DNA of 64,000 nucleotides from Cellulomonas pakistanensis (GTDB lineage Bacteria; Actinomycetota; Actinomycetes; Actinomycetales; Cellulomonadaceae), in the NCBI RefSeq assembly GCF_016862755.1, contig NZ_BONO01000006.1, positions 62,001 through 126,000 on the forward strand, in the 5' to 3' direction. Each line of letters begins with the position of its first letter. Position 1 is the first letter of the stretch. Positions 54,557 to 64,000 of this stretch are shown here, piece by piece. The position numbers and the translations under genes are program-made. The notes beneath the pieces were generated by a model, which saw only the letters and a program-made list of their open reading frames with translations, had not been told where the DNA came from and did no database searches.

Positions 54557-55051
54557 CTACGCCAGGGCGCGCCTGCTGCTGATGACGCCGGTGTCGAAGC
54601 CCGCGAGGTGCAGGCCGCCGTGGAAGCGGGCGTGCTCGATCTTGACGCAGCGGTCCATGACGACCGTCAGGCCCGCCGCCTCGCCGCGCGCCGCGACGTC
54701 CTCGTGCCACGAGCCGAGCTGCAGCCACAGCGCCTTCGCCCCGACGGCCAGCGTCTCGTCGAGCACCGTCGGCAGGTCGTCGTGCCGGCGGAACACGTCC
54801 ACCAGGTCCGGGACCACCGGCAGGGCGTCGAGCGAGGGGTACACCGGCTGCCCGAGGATCTCGGTCTCGCGCGGGTTGACCAGGTACACGTCGTACGGCG
54901 TGCTGGACAGCAGGTACGTCGTGACGAAGTACGACGCGCGCGCGGGGTTGTTGGACGCGCCGACGATCGCGATCGACCGGGTGCGGCGGAGCAGCGCCAG
55001 GCGCTCGGGGGCGCTCGGCCCCTGCCAGGTGCGCTCGGGGGTCGTGGTCAT
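54557..55051 (-). CDS. CoA-binding protein (YccU/CoA_binding_2 family)
   Basis: The 164-residue Rossmann-fold protein has SIAIVGASNNPARASYFVTT, YDVYLVNPRETEILGQPVYP, DLVDVFRRHDDLPTVLDETL, KALWLQLGSWHEDVAARGEA and VVMDRCVKIEHARFHGGLH. YccU-type proteins bind CoA or a related nucleotide; the role is unclear. It starts inside the metY stop (TGATG overlap), so it belongs to the sulfur/acetate operon. The co-occurrence of a MetY-type enzyme, an acetate-CoA ligase and a CoA binder suggests a link with acetyl-CoA handling, which is inference. Confidence 0.9.
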   Translation of the reverse strand: MTTTPERTWQGPSAPERLALLRRTRSIAIVGASNNPARASYFVTTYLLSSTPYDVYLVNPRETEILGQPVYPSLDALPVVPDLVDVFRRHDDLPTVLDETLAVGAKALWLQLGSWHEDVAARGEAAGLTVVMDRCVKIEHARFHGGLHLAGFDTGVISSRRALA

Positions 55052-56502
55052 CAGCTCTCCTCCGGGATCGAGCAGGACGCGCCGCCGGCGATGCCGCCGA
55101 CGCCGGTGACCGCCGCGCCGACCGCGGTGGCGGCCGGGACGGCGGGCCGCGCGGCGGCGGCCGCGGCCCCGTCGGTCGCGCCGTCCGACGCCTCGCGCGG
55201 CGCCGTCGCCGCCGTCAGCGCCTGGTCCAGGTCCCAGAGGATGTCCTCCGGGTCCTCGAGCCCGACGCTGATCCGCACCAGGTCCTCGGGCACGCCCGCC
55301 ACGGCGAGCTGCTCCGCCGACAGCTGCTGGTGCGTGGTCGACGCCGGGTGGATGACGAGCGTGCGCGCGTCACCGACGTTGGCCAGGTGGCTGGCGAGCT
55401 GCAGGTTCTCGATGAACCGGCGCCCGACCTCGCGGCCGTCGCGGTCGGCGGTCGCCGCGAGCCGGAACGCGAACACCGACCCCGGTCCGAGCGGCAGGTA
55501 GCGCCGCGCGCGCTCGTGGTGCGGGTGCGACGGCAGGCCCGCCCACTGCACCGACGTGACGCGCGGGTCGGCGTCGAGCCACTCGGCGACGGCCCGGGCG
55601 TTGGCCAGGTGCGCGTCGAGCCGCTGGGGGAGGGTCTCCACGCCCTGCAGCAGCTGGAACGCCGACTGCGCCGACAGCGACGGGCCGATGTCCCGCAGCT
55701 GCTCGGAGCGGAGCTTGGTGAGGAACCCGTACTCGCCGAAGTTCTCCCACCACTTCACGTCGTTGTACGACGGCACCGGCTCGGTCATCTGCGGGAACTT
55801 GCCGTTGCCCCAGTTGAACCGGCCGGACTCGACGACGACGCCGCCGAGCGTGGTGCCGTGCCCGCCGAGGAACTTGGTGGCGGAGTGGATGACGATGTCG
55901 GCGCCGTGCTCGATCGGCCGCACCAGGTACGGGGTCGACAGCGTGGCGTCGACGACGAGCGGGACGCCCGCGGCGTGCGCGACCTCGGCCAGGCCGGCCA
56001 GGTCGGCGACCTCCCCGGACGGGTTCGCGACGACCTCGGTGTAGACGGCCTTGGTCTTCGGGCGGATCGCCGCGGCGTAGTCCGCCGGGTCGGTGCCCGC
56101 GACGAACGTGGTCTCGACGCCGAACCGGCGCAGCGTCACGTCGAGCTGGGTGACCGTGCCGCCGTACAGCTGCGCGGAGGCGACGACGTGGTCGCCCGCG
56201 CCGACCAGCGCGGCGAACGTGATGAACTCCGCCGCCATGCCGGACGCGGTCGCGACGGCGCCGATGCCGCCCTCGAGCGAGGCGATCCGCTCCTCGAACG
56301 CGGCGACCGTCGGGTTGCCGAGCCGGGAGTAGATGTTGCCGTACTTCTGCAGCGCGAACAGGTTCGCGGCGTCGGTGGTGTCGTTGAACACGAACGACGT
56401 CGTCTGGTAGATCGGCACGGCGCGGGCGCCGGTCGCGGCGTCGGGGATCGCCCCGGCGTGCAGGGCGCGGGTGCGGAAGCCGAAGCGGTGCTCGGAGCTC
56501 AT
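55051..56502 (-). CDS. metY: O-acetylhomoserine sulfhydrylase (O-acetylhomoserine aminocarboxypropyltransferase)
   Basis: The 483-residue PLP enzyme makes homocysteine (or methionine from methanethiol) from O-acetylhomoserine, releasing acetate. Motifs: RALHAGAIPDAATGARAVPI, YQTTSFVF, LEGGIGAVATASGMAAEF, VVDATLSTPYLVRPIEHGAD and the PLP Lys in IVIHSATKFLGGHG, then VPSYNDVKWWENFGEYGFLT. It exceeds typical MetY (about 430) by an Ala/Gly-rich tail ending ASCSIPEES. ATG 56502 overlaps the acs stop by ATGA. Placement after sulfonate-transport genes supports a role in fixing imported sulfur. Confidence 0.95.
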   Translation of the reverse strand: MSSEHRFGFRTRALHAGAIPDAATGARAVPIYQTTSFVFNDTTDAANLFALQKYGNIYSRLGNPTVAAFEERIASLEGGIGAVATASGMAAEFITFAALVGAGDHVVASAQLYGGTVTQLDVTLRRFGVETTFVAGTDPADYAAAIRPKTKAVYTEVVANPSGEVADLAGLAEVAHAAGVPLVVDATLSTPYLVRPIEHGADIVIHSATKFLGGHGTTLGGVVVESGRFNWGNGKFPQMTEPVPSYNDVKWWENFGEYGFLTKLRSEQLRDIGPSLSAQSAFQLLQGVETLPQRLDAHLANARAVAEWLDADPRVTSVQWAGLPSHPHHERARRYLPLGPGSVFAFRLAATADRDGREVGRRFIENLQLASHLANVGDARTLVIHPASTTHQQLSAEQLAVAGVPEDLVRISVGLEDPEDILWDLDQALTAATAPREASDGATDGAAAAAARPAVPAATAVGAAVTGVGGIAGGASCSIPEES

Positions 56503-58565
56503 GCGCGAGTGGCCTCCTCGGCCTCGGGGATCGGGGCGAGGGTAACGCCGTCGCGCAGCAGCGCGGCGACCTGGTCCACGGCCCAGGGGTTCTGCAGGGA
56601 GGTGACGTCGCCGAGCGGCCGGCCGTCGTGCAGCTCGGCCAGCAGCCGCCGCATGATCTTGCCGGACCGGGTCTTGGGGACCTCGGGGACGAGGACGACG
56701 TGCTTCGGCTTGGCGACCGGGCCGATCTCGCGCTGCACCTGCGCGCGCAGGTCCTCGCGCAGCGCCGCGGCGGCGGCCCGCCAGGCGGCGACGTCCTCGA
56801 CCGGCCCGGGCGCGACCGCCGGGACGACGAACGCGGCCACGGCCTGCCCGCCGACGGCGTCCGTGACGCCCGCGACGCCGGCCTCGCCGACCGCGGGGTG
56901 CGCGACGAGGGCCGACTCGATCTCGATGGTCGACAGCCGGTGGCCCGCGACGTTCACGACGTCGTCCACCCGGCCGAGCAGCCAGACGTCGCCGTCGGCG
57001 TCCCAGGACGCGCCGTCGCCGGCGAGGAAGTAGCCGTGCGCGGCGAGCGGCCGCCAGTAGGAGTCGCGGAACCGCGCCGGGTCGCCCCACACGGTCCGCG
57101 CCATGCCGGGCCACGTCCGGTCGAGCACGAGGTAGCCGCCGGAGCCGCGGGGCACCTCGGCGCCCGCGTCGTCGACCACCTTCGCCGAGAAGCCGGGCAG
57201 CGCGCGGGTGGCCGAGCCGGGCTTGAGCGTGGTGACGCCGGGCAGCGGGGCGATGACGGCCGCGCCGGTCTCGGACTGCCACCAGGTGTCGACGACCGGC
57301 GCGCGGTCGGCCCCGAACTGCGAGCGGAACCACACCCACGCCTCGGGGTTGATCGCCTCGCCGACGGTCCCGAGCAGGCGGACGGTCGACAGGTCGTACC
57401 CGGCCGGCAGGCCCTCGGGGAACCACGTCATGAAGGTCCGGATCAGGGTCGGGGCGGTGTAGTAGACGGTGACGCCGTACCGCTCGATGACCTCGAGGTG
57501 GCGCTCGCGGTGCGGGGTGTCGGGCGTGCCCTCGTAGATCACCTGGGTCAGCCCGTTGCTGAGCGGCCCGTAGATCTCGTAGGTGTGCGCCGTGACCCAG
57601 GCGAGGTCGGCGGTGCACCAGTGCACGTCGTCGGGCTTGGCGTCGAACATCGCCCAGTGCGTCCAGGACGCGTGCGTCAGGTAGCCGCCGGTGGTGTGCA
57701 CCAGGCCCTTGGGCTTCCCGGTGGTGCCGGACGTGTAGATGATGAACAGCGGGTGCTCGGCGTCGAACGCCTGCGCCTCGTGCTCGTCCGACGCGGTGTC
57801 GACGACGTCGTGCCACCAGACGTCGCGGCCCTCGGTCCAGGCGACGTCCTGCCCGGTGCGCCGCACGACCAGCACGTGCTCGACGTGGTCCAGGCCGTCG
57901 ACCGCGGCGTCCGCGGCGGACTTCACCTCGACGGCCTGCCCGCGGCGGAACTGGCCGTCGCTGGTGACCAGCAGCTTGGCGCCGGTGTCCTGCACCCGGA
58001 ACCGCACGGCCTCCGCGGAGAACCCGCCGAACACCAGGGAGTGCACCGCGCCGATCCGGGCGATCGCGAGGGTCACGACGATCGTCTCGGCGATCACCGG
58101 CAGGTAGACGACCACGCGGTCGCCGGGGCCGACGCCGAGGTCGGTCAGGGCGTTCGCGGCCCGGGACACCTCGCGCTGCAGGTCGGCGTAGGTGATCGAC
58201 CGCCGGTCGCCGCGCTCGCCCTCGGCGTGGATCGCGACCTTGTCGCCGCGGCCGGCGGCCACGTGCCGGTCGACGCAGTTCACCGCGGCGTTCAGCCTGC
58301 CGCCGACGAACCACTGCGCCTCGGGGACGGTCAGCTCGCCGTCCGGGCCCTCGACCGCGGGGGACCAGGTGTGGGCGGTGTGCCAGGGCTCGGCCCACTC
58401 CAGGCGGCGGGCGGCGTCCTCCCAGAACCCCACGTGGTCGGCGTCGGCCCACGCCCGCAGGCGTTCGGCCTCCTCCGGGCCCACGTTCCAGTCGCCGGCC
58501 GGGGCCGGGTACGCGCGGGTCTCGGTCTGCAGCGCGGTGATGGTCGCGCTCGTCGTGCTCGTCAT
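56499..58565 (-). CDS. acs: Acetate-CoA ligase (acetyl-CoA synthetase)
   Basis: The 688-residue enzyme activates acetate to acetyl-CoA through acetyl-AMP. Motifs: DWNVGPEEAERLRAWADADH, LNAAVNCVDRHVAAGRGDKV, the adenylation loop IIYTSGTTGKPKGLVHTTGG, WWQSETGAAVIAPLPG, YFLAGDGASWDADGDVWLLG and the C-terminal Lys motif PKTRSGKIMRRLL, the usual site of acetylation control. It lies between ssuC (start overlap ATGA) and metY (ATGA), so it is cotranscribed with sulfur genes, an uncommon setting. Recycling of acetate released by MetY is the simplest explanation. Confidence 0.95.
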   Translation of the reverse strand: MTSTTSATITALQTETRAYPAPAGDWNVGPEEAERLRAWADADHVGFWEDAARRLEWAEPWHTAHTWSPAVEGPDGELTVPEAQWFVGGRLNAAVNCVDRHVAAGRGDKVAIHAEGERGDRRSITYADLQREVSRAANALTDLGVGPGDRVVVYLPVIAETIVVTLAIARIGAVHSLVFGGFSAEAVRFRVQDTGAKLLVTSDGQFRRGQAVEVKSAADAAVDGLDHVEHVLVVRRTGQDVAWTEGRDVWWHDVVDTASDEHEAQAFDAEHPLFIIYTSGTTGKPKGLVHTTGGYLTHASWTHWAMFDAKPDDVHWCTADLAWVTAHTYEIYGPLSNGLTQVIYEGTPDTPHRERHLEVIERYGVTVYYTAPTLIRTFMTWFPEGLPAGYDLSTVRLLGTVGEAINPEAWVWFRSQFGADRAPVVDTWWQSETGAAVIAPLPGVTTLKPGSATRALPGFSAKVVDDAGAEVPRGSGGYLVLDRTWPGMARTVWGDPARFRDSYWRPLAAHGYFLAGDGASWDADGDVWLLGRVDDVVNVAGHRLSTIEIESALVAHPAVGEAGVAGVTDAVGGQAVAAFVVPAVAPGPVEDVAAWRAAAAALREDLRAQVQREIGPVAKPKHVVLVPEVPKTRSGKIMRRLLAELHDGRPLGDVTSLQNPWAVDQVAALLRDGVTLAPIPEAEEATRA

Positions 58566-59449
58566 GCCCACCTTCTCAGCAGCGACTTCTCGGCCAGTCC
58601 GATCAGCGCGTCGGTCGTCTTGCCCAGCAGCGCCAGCAGGACGATCGCCAGGATCATCCGGTCGACGCGGCCGTTGTTGCCGGAGTCCATCAGGAGGAAG
58701 CCGAGGCCCATCGACGACGCGATGAGCTCCGCGGCCACCAGGAACAGCCACGACTGCGCGAGCGCGAGCCGCAGTCCCGCCACCACGGACGGGACGGCGG
58801 CGGGGAGCTGCACGGCCCCGAGCAGCCGCGCCCCGCGCAGCCCGTACGCGCGCCCGGCCTCGACCAGGTGCGCGTCGACGTGCCGCAGCGCGGCGACGAC
58901 GGTCGTGTACACCGGGAAGAACGCGCCGATCGCGATGAGCGTCAGCTTCGACTCCTCGCCGATCTTCATCCAGAGGATCAGCAGCGGCACCCAGGCCAGC
59001 GACGGCACCGCCCGGATCGCGCCCAGCGTCGGCTCGAGCAGCGCGCCGGCCAGACGGGACAGGCCGACGACGGACCCGACAGCCAGTCCGAGGGCCGCTC
59101 CGATCAGGAACCCGAGCACGACGCGCTGCGTCGAGATCGCGACGTACTGGCCGAGCAGGCCGCGCTGCGCGAGGTCGACGGCCGCGGTCCAGACGGACGC
59201 GGGGCTCGGCAGCTGGTACGGCGCGACCAGGCCGGACGCCGTGACGAGCTGCCACGCGACCAGCAGGACCGCGGGCACCACGAGGCCGAGGGCGAGGCGC
59301 ACGGGCCGGCGCGCGAGCGGCCCGGCGCCGGGGCGGGCGGCGAGGCCGAGGCTGAACGGGTTCAGCCCGGGCAGCGCGCGGCCGCGGGCGTCGGTCGCCC
59401 GGACGCTGCTGCCCGCGACGGTCACCACGGGGGCGGGGGCGTCGGTCAT
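58562..59449 (-). CDS. ssuC: Aliphatic sulfonate/nitrate-type ABC transporter permease (SsuC)
   Basis: The 295-residue membrane protein has about six helices after a 50-residue leader; the EAA loop is VEAGRAYGLRGARLLGAVQL, preceded by IRAVPSLAWVPLLILWMKIG, typical of SsuC/TauC/NrtB permeases. It would carry organosulfur compounds through the membrane with SsuB. GGAG lies about 8 nt before ATG 59449. The stop overlaps the acs start. It is separated from ssuA by 110 bp holding palindromic element F. Confidence 0.92.
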   Translation of the reverse strand: MTDAPAPVVTVAGSSVRATDARGRALPGLNPFSLGLAARPGAGPLARRPVRLALGLVVPAVLLVAWQLVTASGLVAPYQLPSPASVWTAAVDLAQRGLLGQYVAISTQRVVLGFLIGAALGLAVGSVVGLSRLAGALLEPTLGAIRAVPSLAWVPLLILWMKIGEESKLTLIAIGAFFPVYTTVVAALRHVDAHLVEAGRAYGLRGARLLGAVQLPAAVPSVVAGLRLALAQSWLFLVAAELIASSMGLGFLLMDSGNNGRVDRMILAIVLLALLGKTTDALIGLAEKSLLRRWA

Positions 59450-59559: not shown

Positions 59560-60633
59560 TCAGTCGGCGATCGTCGTCGGGTCGGCGTTCTCCGCGTAGG
59601 TGGGCTCGAACAGCTCGTCCAGCGCGGTGTCGACCAGGTCCTGGCTCGCCACGTCGCCGGACTCGACGAAGATCGGGCCGACGACCTCGAGCACGTCGCG
59701 CTGCGCCTGGCCGGGGACCGGGTCGATGTCGAGCGTGGTGCGCTCGGTGATGACGGTCTCGGCGACGGCCGGGTCGATGCCGGCGACCTCGGCGAGGATC
59801 GCCACGACCTCGTCGGGGTTCTCCTGCGCCCAGGCGCGCGCCTTCTCGTAGGCGTCGACGACGACCTGCGCCAGGTCGGGGCTCGCGTCCAGGAACTCCT
59901 GCGTCGCGTTGAGGAACCCGTAGGTGTTGAAGTCGACGTTGCGGTAGACCAGCGTCGACCCGGCCTCCGCCTCGCTCGCGGCCATCAGCGGGTCCAGGCC
60001 GGACCACGCGTCGACCGAGCCGTTCTCCAGCGCGGCCTTGCCGTCCGCGTGCTGCAGGTTCTGCACCTCGACGTCGGCCGGGTCGACGCCCGCCTCGTCG
60101 AGCGCCTGCAGCAGGAAGAAGTACGGGTCGGTGCCCTTGGTCGCGGCGACCGAGCGCCCGGCCAGGTCCTCGACGCCCGTGATGTCCGAGCCCTCCGGCA
60201 CGACGAGCGCCGCCCACTCGGGCTGGCCGTAGATGTCGATGGTGCGGATCGGCGACCCGTTCGACCGGGCGAGCAGCGCCGCCGAGCCGGCGGTGGAGCC
60301 GACGTCGACCGCGCCGGCGCGCAGCGCCTCGTTGGCCTTGTTCGAGCCGGCCGACTGGACCCACTCGACGGTGACGTCGTCGCCGAGCGTCTCCTCGAGC
60401 CAGCCCTGGTCCTTGATGACCAGGCTGAGCGGGTTGTAGGTCGCGAAGTCGACGGTGAGCGTGTCGGCGCTCCAGCCCTCGGCGGTCGCGCCGTCCGCGG
60501 GCTCGTCGGCCTGGGCGGCCTCGCCCTCGCCGGCCACGCAGCCGGCGAGCAGCAGGGTCGCGGCGACGGCGCTCGCGCCGAGGGCGATCGGGCCGCGCAG
60601 CCGGCGACGGGAGGCGGTGGTCAGGGCGGTCAT
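59560..60633 (-). CDS. ssuA: Sulfonate/taurine-type ABC transporter substrate-binding lipoprotein (SsuA/NrtA family)
   Basis: The 357-residue precursor has an Arg-rich N-terminus, hydrophobic core and lipobox LLLAGCVAG. The mature part is an NMT1/SsuA-type domain: TVDFATYNPLSLVIKDQGWL, VEWVQSAGSNKANEALRAGA, DVGSTAGSAALLARSNGSPI, LAGRSVAATKGTDPYFFLLQ and DAWSGLDPLMAASEAEAGST. It delivers the ligand to SsuC. The exact substrate (alkanesulfonate, taurine or other) cannot be told; no SsuD monooxygenase is encoded in the window. It follows ssuB by 35 bp. Confidence 0.9.
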   Translation of the reverse strand: MTALTTASRRRLRGPIALGASAVAATLLLAGCVAGEGEAAQADEPADGATAEGWSADTLTVDFATYNPLSLVIKDQGWLEETLGDDVTVEWVQSAGSNKANEALRAGAVDVGSTAGSAALLARSNGSPIRTIDIYGQPEWAALVVPEGSDITGVEDLAGRSVAATKGTDPYFFLLQALDEAGVDPADVEVQNLQHADGKAALENGSVDAWSGLDPLMAASEAEAGSTLVYRNVDFNTYGFLNATQEFLDASPDLAQVVVDAYEKARAWAQENPDEVVAILAEVAGIDPAVAETVITERTTLDIDPVPGQAQRDVLEVVGPIFVESGDVASQDLVDTALDELFEPTYAENADPTTIAD

Positions 60634-60668: not shown

Positions 60669-61538
60669 TCAGATGGAGTGGTGCGCGTCGGGGTCGTGCG
60701 CGGGGTGGTGCGTGGGGACGCCGAGCCCGTCGAGGAGCTCGGCGCGCAGCTCGGCGAGCCGGGCGTCCGCGCGGTCGCGGGGCCGGTCGCCGGGGACGGT
60801 GACGACGGAGCGGACGGAGGTGTCGGCCGCTCCGGCCGTGAGGGAGCCGAGCAGCACGACCCGGTCGGCGAGGTAGAGGGCCTCCTCGACGTCGTGCGTC
60901 ACCAGCAGCACCGTCGTCGGGCGGCTGGCGTGCACCTCGAGCAGCAGGTCCTGCATCCGCAGCCGGGTCAGCGCGTCGAGGGCGCCGAACGGCTCGTCGA
61001 GCAGCAGCACGCCGGGCCGGCGGGCGAGCGCCCGGGCCAGCGACGCGCGCTGCGCCATGCCGCCGGACACCTGCCGCGGCCGCAGCCCGGCCGAGCCGGC
61101 GAGCCCGACCAGGTCGAGCAGCCGGGCGACCTGCTCCCGGGACTCGGCGCGCGGCGTGCCGCGGGGGACGCCGAGCGCCACGTTGTGCGCGAGCGTCCGC
61201 CAGGGGAGCAGGCGGGGCTCCTGGAACGCGACGGCGGTGCGCGCGTCGTAGGGGGCGACGGGCTCGCCGCCGAGCAGGATCCGGCCGCCGTCCGGGGCGT
61301 CGAGGCCGGCGACCTGGCGCAGCAGCGTCGACTTGCCGCAGCCGGACGGGCCGACGACGGCGACGATCTCGCCGGCCGCGACCGACAGGTCGACGCCGGC
61401 GAGCACGGGGCGGGGCCCTGCGGGCGTGGCGAAGGTGCGGGCGACGCCGTGCAGCTCGACCGGGCGGGCGGTCGCGGCGTCGGCCGGGTCGGCGGTCGTG
61501 GTGGCGGTGCGGGTGGCGGTGCTGGGCGCGGGGCTCAT
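60669..61538 (-). CDS. ssuB: Sulfonate-type ABC transporter ATP-binding protein (SsuB)
   Basis: The 289-residue ATPase has Walker A VVGPSGCGKSTLLRQVAG, Q-loop TAVAFQEPRLLPWRTLAHNV, signature VSGGMAQRASLARALARRPG, Walker B VLLLDEPFGALDALTRLRM and switch His in LLVTHDVEEALYLADRV. The QEPRLLPW sequence is typical of SsuB/TauB/NrtD-type ATPases. It is the first large gene of the operon; upstream are a candidate Cys-rich leader ORF and a three-half-site repeat. The ATG at 61538 lacks an obvious ribosome site, consistent with translation influenced by the leader. Confidence 0.93.
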   Translation of the reverse strand: MSPAPSTATRTATTTADPADAATARPVELHGVARTFATPAGPRPVLAGVDLSVAAGEIVAVVGPSGCGKSTLLRQVAGLDAPDGGRILLGGEPVAPYDARTAVAFQEPRLLPWRTLAHNVALGVPRGTPRAESREQVARLLDLVGLAGSAGLRPRQVSGGMAQRASLARALARRPGVLLLDEPFGALDALTRLRMQDLLLEVHASRPTTVLLVTHDVEEALYLADRVVLLGSLTAGAADTSVRSVVTVPGDRPRDRADARLAELRAELLDGLGVPTHHPAHDPDAHHSI

Positions 61539-61692
61539 GGGGGTTCCCGGGTCGTCGGGCCGCTGCGGAGGCGGCGCGGGGCGGCGAGGGTGCCGGGACC
61601 GGCGCGACCGGCGCGGCGGGGCGCGGGTCGGACGGGTCGCGGCGGGGCGGGGTGCTGCCGGGGCGCGGCCCGTGGGCGTCAGGAGGACGCGG

Positions 61693-61800
61693 TCAGGCGG
61701 CGCAGGCGCGCGGACAGCTCGCCGAGCGGCGACAACAGCGGCAGGACGCGGGCATGGGCAGGCGCGGGCGCTGGGTCGTGCGCTGCACCGACCGGGCCAC
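61693..61800 (-). CDS. Candidate Cys-rich leader peptide upstream of the sulfur operon
   Basis: A 35-codon frame starts at GTG 61800, 6 nt after AAGGAGG, the strongest ribosome site in this region, and stops at 61693, 154 nt before ssuB. The C-terminal half reads PMPASCRCCRRSASCPRACA: five Cys in the last 16 residues, including TGTTGT in tandem. Cys-rich upstream ORFs that sense cysteine supply by ribosome stalling are known before sulfur genes in mycobacteria and other actinobacteria. Position, ribosome site and composition fit; no clear attenuator stem was found, and chance Cys codons remain possible. Confidence 0.5.
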   Translation of the reverse strand: MARSVQRTTQRPRLPMPASCRCCRRSASCPRACAA

Positions 61801-61818
61801 GGGCCGCCTCCTTCACGC

Positions 61819-61853
61819 CGTCTCGCTCTATGAGACGCGAATGTTCACGTCTC
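61819..61853. promoter_or_regulatory. Candidate operator of the sulfur operon: three GAGACG/CGTCTC half-sites
   Basis: CGTCTC (61819-61824), GAGACG (61832-61837) and CGTCTC (61848-61853). The last two bound a 22-bp palindrome matching at 9 of 10 arm positions. It is just upstream of the leader ORF on the minus strand. It is suggestive of a dimeric regulator binding site. Confidence 0.45.
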
Positions 61854-61950
61854 GGGATCACCGCCGACAGTAGCGCCCGGCCCGCGCCGAGACAACCGCG
61901 CCGCGCCGCCGCGGCGTCCGCCGCGCAGGCCTCGCCTCCCGCGGCGGGCG

Positions 61951-62016
61951 CGCCGAGATGGCGACTCTCGGCTGTGCGAGCGCGCCGTGCCGCAGCCGAG
62001 AGTCGCCAGCTCGGCG
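61951..62016. repeat. Intergenic palindromic repeat element G
   Basis: A 24-bp arm (61951-61974, starting CGCCGAGATGGCG) is inverted at 61993-62016 with one mismatch and an 18-nt loop. It lies between the benE stop and the sulfur-operon promoter region. Confidence 0.92.
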
Positions 62017-62031
62017 AGGGGGGTGGCCGGG

Positions 62032-63416: not shown

Positions 63417-64000
63417 TCAGCCCAGCAGATCCGCGATCTGGTCCAGCTGCTCCGGCGCCGCCTGCACCAGCAGCGTCGTCACGGCCGTGCCCCGCCAGGC
63501 CGCGGACTGCTCGCGCACGTCGTCCGGCGTCCCCACCAGCGCCACGTCCCGCACCAGCTCGGTCGGGACGGCCGCCGCCGCGCGCGCCCGGTCGCCCGCC
63601 AGGTAGTGCGCCTGGATCTCCGCGCACGCCTCGGCGTACCCGAGCCGGGCGAGCGCGTTCGCGTGGAAGTTCGCGCCCTTCGCGCCCATCCCGCCGGCGT
63701 ACAGCGCGACGAACGGACGCACCGCGTCGGCCGCGGCCTCGACGTCCGGGCCCAGCACCACCGGCACGGTGGCGGTGACCTCGAACTCCTCGACGGGGCG
63801 GGTGCCGGCGAGCCGCCGGTCGAAGCCCTCCGCGAGCAGCCCTCGGAACTCGTCGTCGAGGCGCGGGGTGTAGAACAGCGGCAGCCAGCCGTCGGCGATC
63901 TCGGCGGACAGCGCGATGTTCTTCGGCCCCTCGGCGGCGAGGTGGATCGGCAGGTCCGCGCGCAGCGGGTGCACGGTCGAGCGCAGCGCCTTGCCGAGCC
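63417..64000 (-). CDS. Luciferase-like (LLM class) flavin/F420-dependent oxidoreductase, C-terminal part
   Basis: The frame is open from the right edge to a stop at 63417, giving the last 194 codons or so. HPLRADLPIHLAAEGPKNIA followed by LSAEIADGWLPLFYTPR is typical of LLM-class F420-dependent oxidoreductases, and the tail ELVRDVALVGTPDDVREQSA followed by WRGTAVTTLLVQAAP matches their C-terminal barrel. Substrate is unknown. It is superfamily-related to SsuD, but these motifs point to the F420 branch, so it is not taken as the missing sulfonate monooxygenase. The 5' end is outside the window. Confidence 0.88.
   Translation of the reverse strand, partial: LGKALRSTVHPLRADLPIHLAAEGPKNIALSAEIADGWLPLFYTPRLDDEFRGLLAEGFDRRLAGTRPVEEFEVTATVPVVLGPDVEAAADAVRPFVALYAGGMGAKGANFHANALARLGYAEACAEIQAHYLAGDRARAAAAVPTELVRDVALVGTPDDVREQSAAWRGTAVTTLLVQAAPEQLDQIADLLG

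Follow-up and report, generated by a model that had tools for sequence, protein, structure and literature searches.

The region ahead of ssuB in Cellulomonas pakistanensis raises the question of what a short, cysteine-rich open reading frame is doing directly before genes for sulfonate-type uptake and an O-acetylhomoserine sulfhydrylase. A preliminary description of the window (the whole 64,000-nt stretch of DNA that was analysed) had pointed to a 35-codon ORF with AAGGAGG at 6-nt spacing, whose final 16 residues include five Cys, and which lies directly ahead of ssuB-ssuA-ssuC-acs-metY. The ORF, its Shine–Dalgarno (SD) sequence, and its Cys cluster (residues 20, 22, 23, 29, and 33) are present in exactly this form on the minus strand, and family matches bear out the gene order:

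61807..61813 (-): SD sequence AAGGAGG of the leader ORF, 6 nt from the GTG, kept in relatives
61693..61800 (-): Cys-rich leader ORF, 35 aa, GTG start, TGA stop, peptide MARSVQRTTQRPRLPMPASCRCCRRSASCPRACAA
61732..61743 (-): main Cys codon cluster TGC CGC TGT TGT (CRCC), the proposed stall site
60669..61538 (-): ssuB, ABC transporter ATPase
59560..60633 (-): ssuA, aliphatic sulfonate-family substrate-binding protein (TIGR01728)
58562..59449 (-): ssuC-like permease
56499..58565 (-): acs, acetate--CoA ligase (TIGR02188)
55051..56502 (-): metY, O-acetylhomoserine sulfhydrylase (TIGR01326)

The leader stop lies 154 nt from the ssuB ATG (61538), and ssuC/acs and acs/metY each overlap by 4 nt. The reading that we favor, at a probability of roughly 0.78, is that the ORF is a translated leader coupling expression of ssuB-ssuA-ssuC-acs-metY to the supply of charged Cys-tRNA, i.e., an SD-led, ribosome-mediated attenuator; that it senses cysteine we infer from its sequence and from comparison with relatives.

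The cysteine content is far above background. At the rate of the window's genes, at least five Cys in 34 codons has a binomial P of 1.8e-7, and under a first-order Markov null 1/20000 upstream regions contained an SD-led ORF of 15–50 aa with at least five Cys. Across 30 Cellulomonas leaders, Cys makes up 16.8% of codons, versus 0.37% in 33 putative window genes, and the rarer codon TGT accounts for 60/150 (40%) of leader Cys codons versus 1/48 (2%) in window genes; the window leader itself uses, in order, TGC, TGT, TGT, TGT, and TGC.

Conservation upstream of ssuB, which the preliminary description had proposed as a check, was found across Cellulomonas, Actinotalea, and sister genera. We took ssuB orthologues from 59 relatives, together with ssuA orthologues matched in 75/222 family genomes, and read 71 upstream regions; family-wide, 57 leaders could be assigned, a few of them weak (e.g., L111). 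Among same-genus orthologues with close SsuB sequences, the window included, a Cys-rich ORF occupies the same place in 14/14 loci, 13 of them with a well-placed SD (the sequence of L010 ends at a contig end). Nearly all Cellulomonas and Actinotalea genomes with this ssu operon and enough upstream sequence carry a well-placed SD and an ORF of 16–38 aa. Leader-bearing relatives comprise Cellulomonas, a sister group that is mostly Actinotalea, and others in Promicromonospora and Puerhibacterium (example peptides are MTVARSVHVLRPVMCRCCPCCVMQPRTGPC, MTAVRTAPSPAVMTRCCHMCCMCPCTGPC, MTARPSLLMCCRSACCSQHRTGS, and MNGLHDSMALPMARMCGCMPRAGA); the regions upstream of the ssu genes hold no leader in most Promicromonospora, nor in Georgenia, Microbacterium, or other Microbacteriaceae. 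No comparable Cys-rich leader was found in the cysD/cysH regions of four relatives, a tblastn search of plasmids with the window peptide gave no match, and an unframed search for other Cys leaders in this and related genomes was dominated by noise, its recognisable true matches being the ssuB leaders.

The features that persist among leaders are the SD, the start, the Cys cluster (as CRCC, CC..CC, or CGC), and the codons next to the stop; other residues turn over. At each of the three Cys positions in CRCC, species differ in whether they use TGC or TGT, with Cys unchanged. Substitutions show no third-position excess, and the N-terminus and length drift, so that conservation does not extend to the peptide sequence itself; drift outside the Cys residues without third-position excess is as expected of a codon sensor. 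The alignments show an SD-led ORF with clustered Cys codons, a putative promoter, and a predicted helix (P2, below) being kept while the peptide drifts. The role of the leader would thus lie in being translated, to which the SD and its conservation point, rather than in acting as a protein.

The same comparisons bear on what else the ORF could be. It might encode a functional small protein, such as a metal-binding or redox peptide, since CRCC and CC..CC could bind metal and the SD is good; yet only the Cys codons and the RNA-paired codons are kept, several Actinotalea and Promicromonospora-family versions retain only one to three Cys, the window peptide matches no NCBIfam or Pfam family, and the position before ssuB is fixed, making this reading very unlikely. 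Improbable too, if not to the same degree, is a locus that is mainly an RNA or operator element, in which the ORF is incidental and its Cys residues stem from overlap of UGC/UGU with the hairpin HP1 described below. Hairpins do overlap the Cys codons and a 5′UTR palindrome is conserved, but so is the correctly spaced SD; Cys survives both the synonymous TGC/TGT changes and differing hairpin sequences; and pairwise gaps fall in multiples of three in 48% of cases inside the ORF versus 20% downstream or otherwise outside it (the pairs not being independent). As for a chance ORF without function, GC-rich DNA does contain many open frames, which leaves the Cys content unexplained, and the 1/20000 null result and conservation in dozens of genomes refute it, leaving a negligible probability.

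A transcription start downstream of 61693, named in the preliminary description as grounds for discarding the leader, is not favored, as a conserved promoter-like pair (61895-61867) precedes the ORF:

61890..61895 (-): promoter -35 element TTGTCT, conserved in alignments
61867..61872 (-): promoter -10 element TACTGT after a 17-nt spacer; TACAGT/TACTGT in relatives

The window's TTGTCT-17-TACTGT aligns with TTGCC..TACAGT of relatives, in most of which the pair likewise lies upstream of the ORF; it went undetected in a scan for the strict sigma70 consensus.

Between the Cys codons and ssuB, the RNA is predicted to form a set of competing helices:

61719..61732 (-): hairpin HP1, UCGCC-GCUC-GGCGA, starting at the Cys cluster
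61694..61703 (-): 5′ arm of helix P2 (strand 2), GCGCCGCCUG, extending from the final leader codons into the stop; groups A and C share this topology
61663..61672 (-): 3′ arm of P2 (strand 3), CGGGCCGCGC
61676..61690 (-): inner hairpin P3, GCGUC-CUCCU-GACGC; an inner hairpin is conserved in Actinotalea
61654..61660 (-): CGGCAGC, complementary to CUGCCG in the region of the first Cys codon
61556..61563 (-): strand 4, GCGGCCCG, with which strand 3 can pair instead, immediately ahead of ssuB

In the window, the P2 arms (GCGCcGCCUG / CGGGCcGCGC) enclose the P3 hairpin. P2 is paired in 160/160 alignment cells of 20 Cellulomonas leaders (group A) and in 123/133 cells of 15 Actinotalea-group leaders (group C), the latter with one compensatory change, and control partners slid by 1–3 columns pair far less. 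The group A arms (GCACCGGC/GCCGGUGC) and group C arms (GCGCUGGC/GCCAGCGC) are two compensatory pairs apart, the window helices have other sequences than the group A helices, and groups E and F show the same helix pattern by eye. A CCGG strand follows the group A 3′ arm GCCGGUGC in 20/20 leaders and can pair with that arm instead; the RNAalifold consensus contains this CCGG pairing in group A and P2 in group C. An HP1-like hairpin sits on or beside the Cys codons in all groups, with 72/73 cells paired and two covarying pairs in group C and 76/98 cells paired in group A; HP1 is missing from the minimum free energy fold of the isolated window stretch.

Modeled with a ribosome held at the Cys codons, the window RNA has a predicted P2 probability of 1.0 and a probability of 0 for pairing of strand 3 with strand 4 (3:4); with the ribosome at the stop, the freed strand 3 pairs with GCGGCCCG at a predicted 0.92, and with no ribosome P2 is predicted at 0.95. 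Any strand freed by masking finds a new partner, so this predicted switch is weak evidence alone, and thermodynamic models of GC-rich RNA prove no switch. Because the duplex of strands 2 and 3 (2:3) beats shuffles in only 6/57 individual leaders of this GC-rich DNA, i.e., the single-sequence test is mostly not significant, we lean only on conservation and covariation; the folding z of the window stretch is likewise only -1.0. The trp-type combination of control codons with a competing 2:3 helix is present, strongly in groups A and C and more weakly in the window clade.

How such a switch would act on ssuB depends on the intervening segment:

61539..61692 (-): spacer rich in C (0.58) and poor in G (0.29), a candidate region for Rho loading

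The C–G bias of the spacer lies at the 99.9th percentile of the window and fits Rho loading, and a consensus scan found no intrinsic terminator or U-tract between leader and ssuB. Across the 37 sequences modeled, predicted accessibility of the ssuB start is nearly equal in both ribosome states, and simple masking of the ssuB SD is not claimed since start accessibility is the same in either state. From the missing U-tract, the C-rich spacer, and the unchanged accessibility, we favor premature termination over SD masking with moderate confidence. The same leader sensor could instead feed translational attenuation as in M. smegmatis, in which the stalled ribosome reshapes the mRNA so that ssuB initiates and transcription is unaffected. 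We hold this to be a doubtful but real possibility, confined to the output step: translation attenuation is the mechanism described for the nearest precedent that has been studied (PMC13236596), and the Cellulomonas ssuB SD is weak (GGGA/GGAC only), so that initiation could be limiting; against it stand the nearly unchanged pairing predicted for the initiation region, the distance of the uORF stop from ssuB, which is too great for simple coupling, and the extent of P2 and 3:4, both of which stop short of the start codon.

With premature termination as the preferred output, the attenuator would work as follows. When cysteine is ample, the ribosome would reach the UGA and cover the 5′ arm of P2; the 3′ arm would then pair onward (3:4), giving an off state of premature termination, with Rho probably assisting on the unprotected C-rich spacer. 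Under cysteine shortage, ribosomes would stall at the CRCC codons, P2 would form, 3:4 would not, and the operon would be on. Action of a Cys leader without a classical terminator, whether by Rho, RNA switching, or translation, is directly testable in culturable Cellulomonas.

Several known systems resemble this arrangement in part. Mycobacterial polycysteine sORFs are cysteine-responsive attenuators (Canestrari et al. 2020, as cited in PMC9031893 and PMC13236596) and, as described there, share with our leader a short ORF in which Cys codons cluster and which lies ahead of a sulfur or cysteine operon, the lack of an intrinsic terminator, and an actinobacterial host. They are described there as leaderless, whereas the window leader is SD-led, its 5′UTR is predicted at about 60 nt, and the conserved promoter-like pair lies about 70 nt ahead of it; the ssu-acs-metY target, the conserved downstream P2, the favoring of TGT, and the Met enrichment in Actinotalea (below) are further differences from those accounts. 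Seliverstov et al. 2005 predicted Cys leaders for cys operons of Mycobacterium and P. acnes and for cbs of B. longum, with Cys runs near the stop, no terminator hairpin, a pyrimidine-rich spacer, and suggested Rho involvement (PMC1262725). The present leader differs in its family, Cellulomonadaceae, in lying ahead of ssu, and in its conserved covarying helices, whereas the earlier work found no conserved hairpins able to act as terminators (PMC1262725). With classical attenuators (trp, and M. tuberculosis ilvB1; PMC13236596) it shares leader-peptide control codons and the competition of a last-codon helix with a downstream helix; unlike the trp type, which ends in a GC hairpin and U-tract terminator, it has no U-tract.

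HVDL-type actinobacterial leaders likewise precede ssu genes and are SD-led, but the window leader contains no HVDL or RRHVDL-like motif; together with the lack of a family match, this supports the earlier view of it as a divergent, Cys-rich type. We infer a leader that would behave as a cysteine-responsive attenuator while being neither leaderless, nor U-tract-terminated, nor of HVDL type. Ribosome-mediated control by cysteine would then reach beyond mycobacteria into another actinobacterial family, here with an SD-led leader and a different operon. An Rfam covariance-model search of the window gave no credible family. Matches to RF00162, the SAM riboswitch, occur only in L016 (1200-1289) and L018 (1156-1248), from two other families of the order, and end a few bases before a leader ORF (at about 1294 and 1255, respectively) ahead of ssuB; the leader is Cys-rich in L016 (MPPTYRPCEVEFHGVAAASCCPAPTLTCRCCL) and of HVDLC type in L018 (GRPHVDLCRR). 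This layout suggests that in these two loci the SAM switch may control translation of the Cys leader.

Control codons appear to have shifted within the family. Fourteen leaders, mostly of Actinotalea (L089, L099, L103-L105, L108, L110, L112-L117, and L126), contain 17.5% non-start Met, versus 0.67% in six proteins encoded in the window, along with 11% Cys; P-values for this shift are inflated by species relatedness, and it is plain in the sequences. An [LR]PM motif is conserved in the Met-rich set and also occurs in the window leader as LPM (61753-61761). Being rich in both residues, the Actinotalea leader may report both Met and Cys, and the attenuator there would sense the two together; such a shift suggests that control codons are exchangeable during evolution.

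The 5′UTR also contains a candidate second layer of control:

61820..61836 (-): palindrome GTCTCATAGAGCGAGAC, candidate operator, shared with the ssu leaders of many relatives
61832..61853 (-): a further inverted repeat, GAGACG-N10-CGTCTC, which overlaps with the palindrome

The palindrome pattern GTCTCRNNNNNYGAGAC has three sites in the C. pakistanensis genome (the reversed control has none): the ssu leader, a site between leuC and a divergent IclR-family regulator (L134, C22:45448-45464), and one just downstream of an upp-like gene (L133, C7:85986-86002). The close relatives G009 and G027 carry identical matches at both sites outside the ssu leader, as does G016 at the last of the three; further sites with the pattern occur across the genus. 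The regulator's assignment to the IclR family is supported by its sequence. NdgR of S. coelicolor binds leucine/BCAA and cysteine operons (PMC4340878), and the window palindrome is common to a divergent IclR-regulator/leuC promoter with the layout of ndgR/ltbR-leuCD, which suggests that it may be the operator of an NdgR/LtbR-like regulator; the 15-bp motif published for S. coelicolor resembles GTCCAC (PMC4340878), in contrast to GTCTCA here. The palindrome could alternatively act as an RNA hairpin. With roughly 57 aligned leaders, control codons, RNA helices, and operator can be told apart.

The physiological setting adds a puzzle. The C. pakistanensis genome (99.9% complete) encodes no PF01507 PAPS/APS-reductase-family protein and no PF01077 sulfite/nitrite reductase domain, while PF01507 matches, a few of them weak, occur in 47/61 Cellulomonas genomes; sulfate and sulfite reduction thus appear to have been lost in this Cellulomonas clade, with the ssu genes remaining. 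The leader occurs in genomes with and without PF01507 and therefore has no fixed link to sulfate assimilation. By the classic route, ordinary desulfonation would give no usable sulfide in a cell that lacks sulfite reductase, and the retention of ssu after this apparent loss makes the substrate of the transporter puzzling. As this genome appears to lack both reductions, its sulfur supply may depend centrally on gating of the ssu operon. The fullest version of our model, which we advance tentatively and at less than even odds, would be a lineage-specific sulfur-amino-acid attenuator ranging from Cys-dominated (Cellulomonas) to Met plus Cys (Actinotalea), with competing helices, a terminator-less, Rho-dependent C-rich spacer, and an NdgR-like operator; it would govern MetY and sulfonate-type uptake in hosts some of which have lost sulfate and sulfite reduction.

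Two features lie farther upstream. At 63417-63998, upstream of benE, the window contains the end of a gene for a luciferase-like oxidoreductase of the F420-dependent type (TIGR03559-like). Between benE and the leader promoter (61950-62017) stands a long inverted repeat, CGAGATGGCGACTCTCGGCTG ... CAGCCGAGAGTCGCCAGCTCGG, which is probably a terminator-like hairpin, given a similar repeat with compensatory differences in L062.
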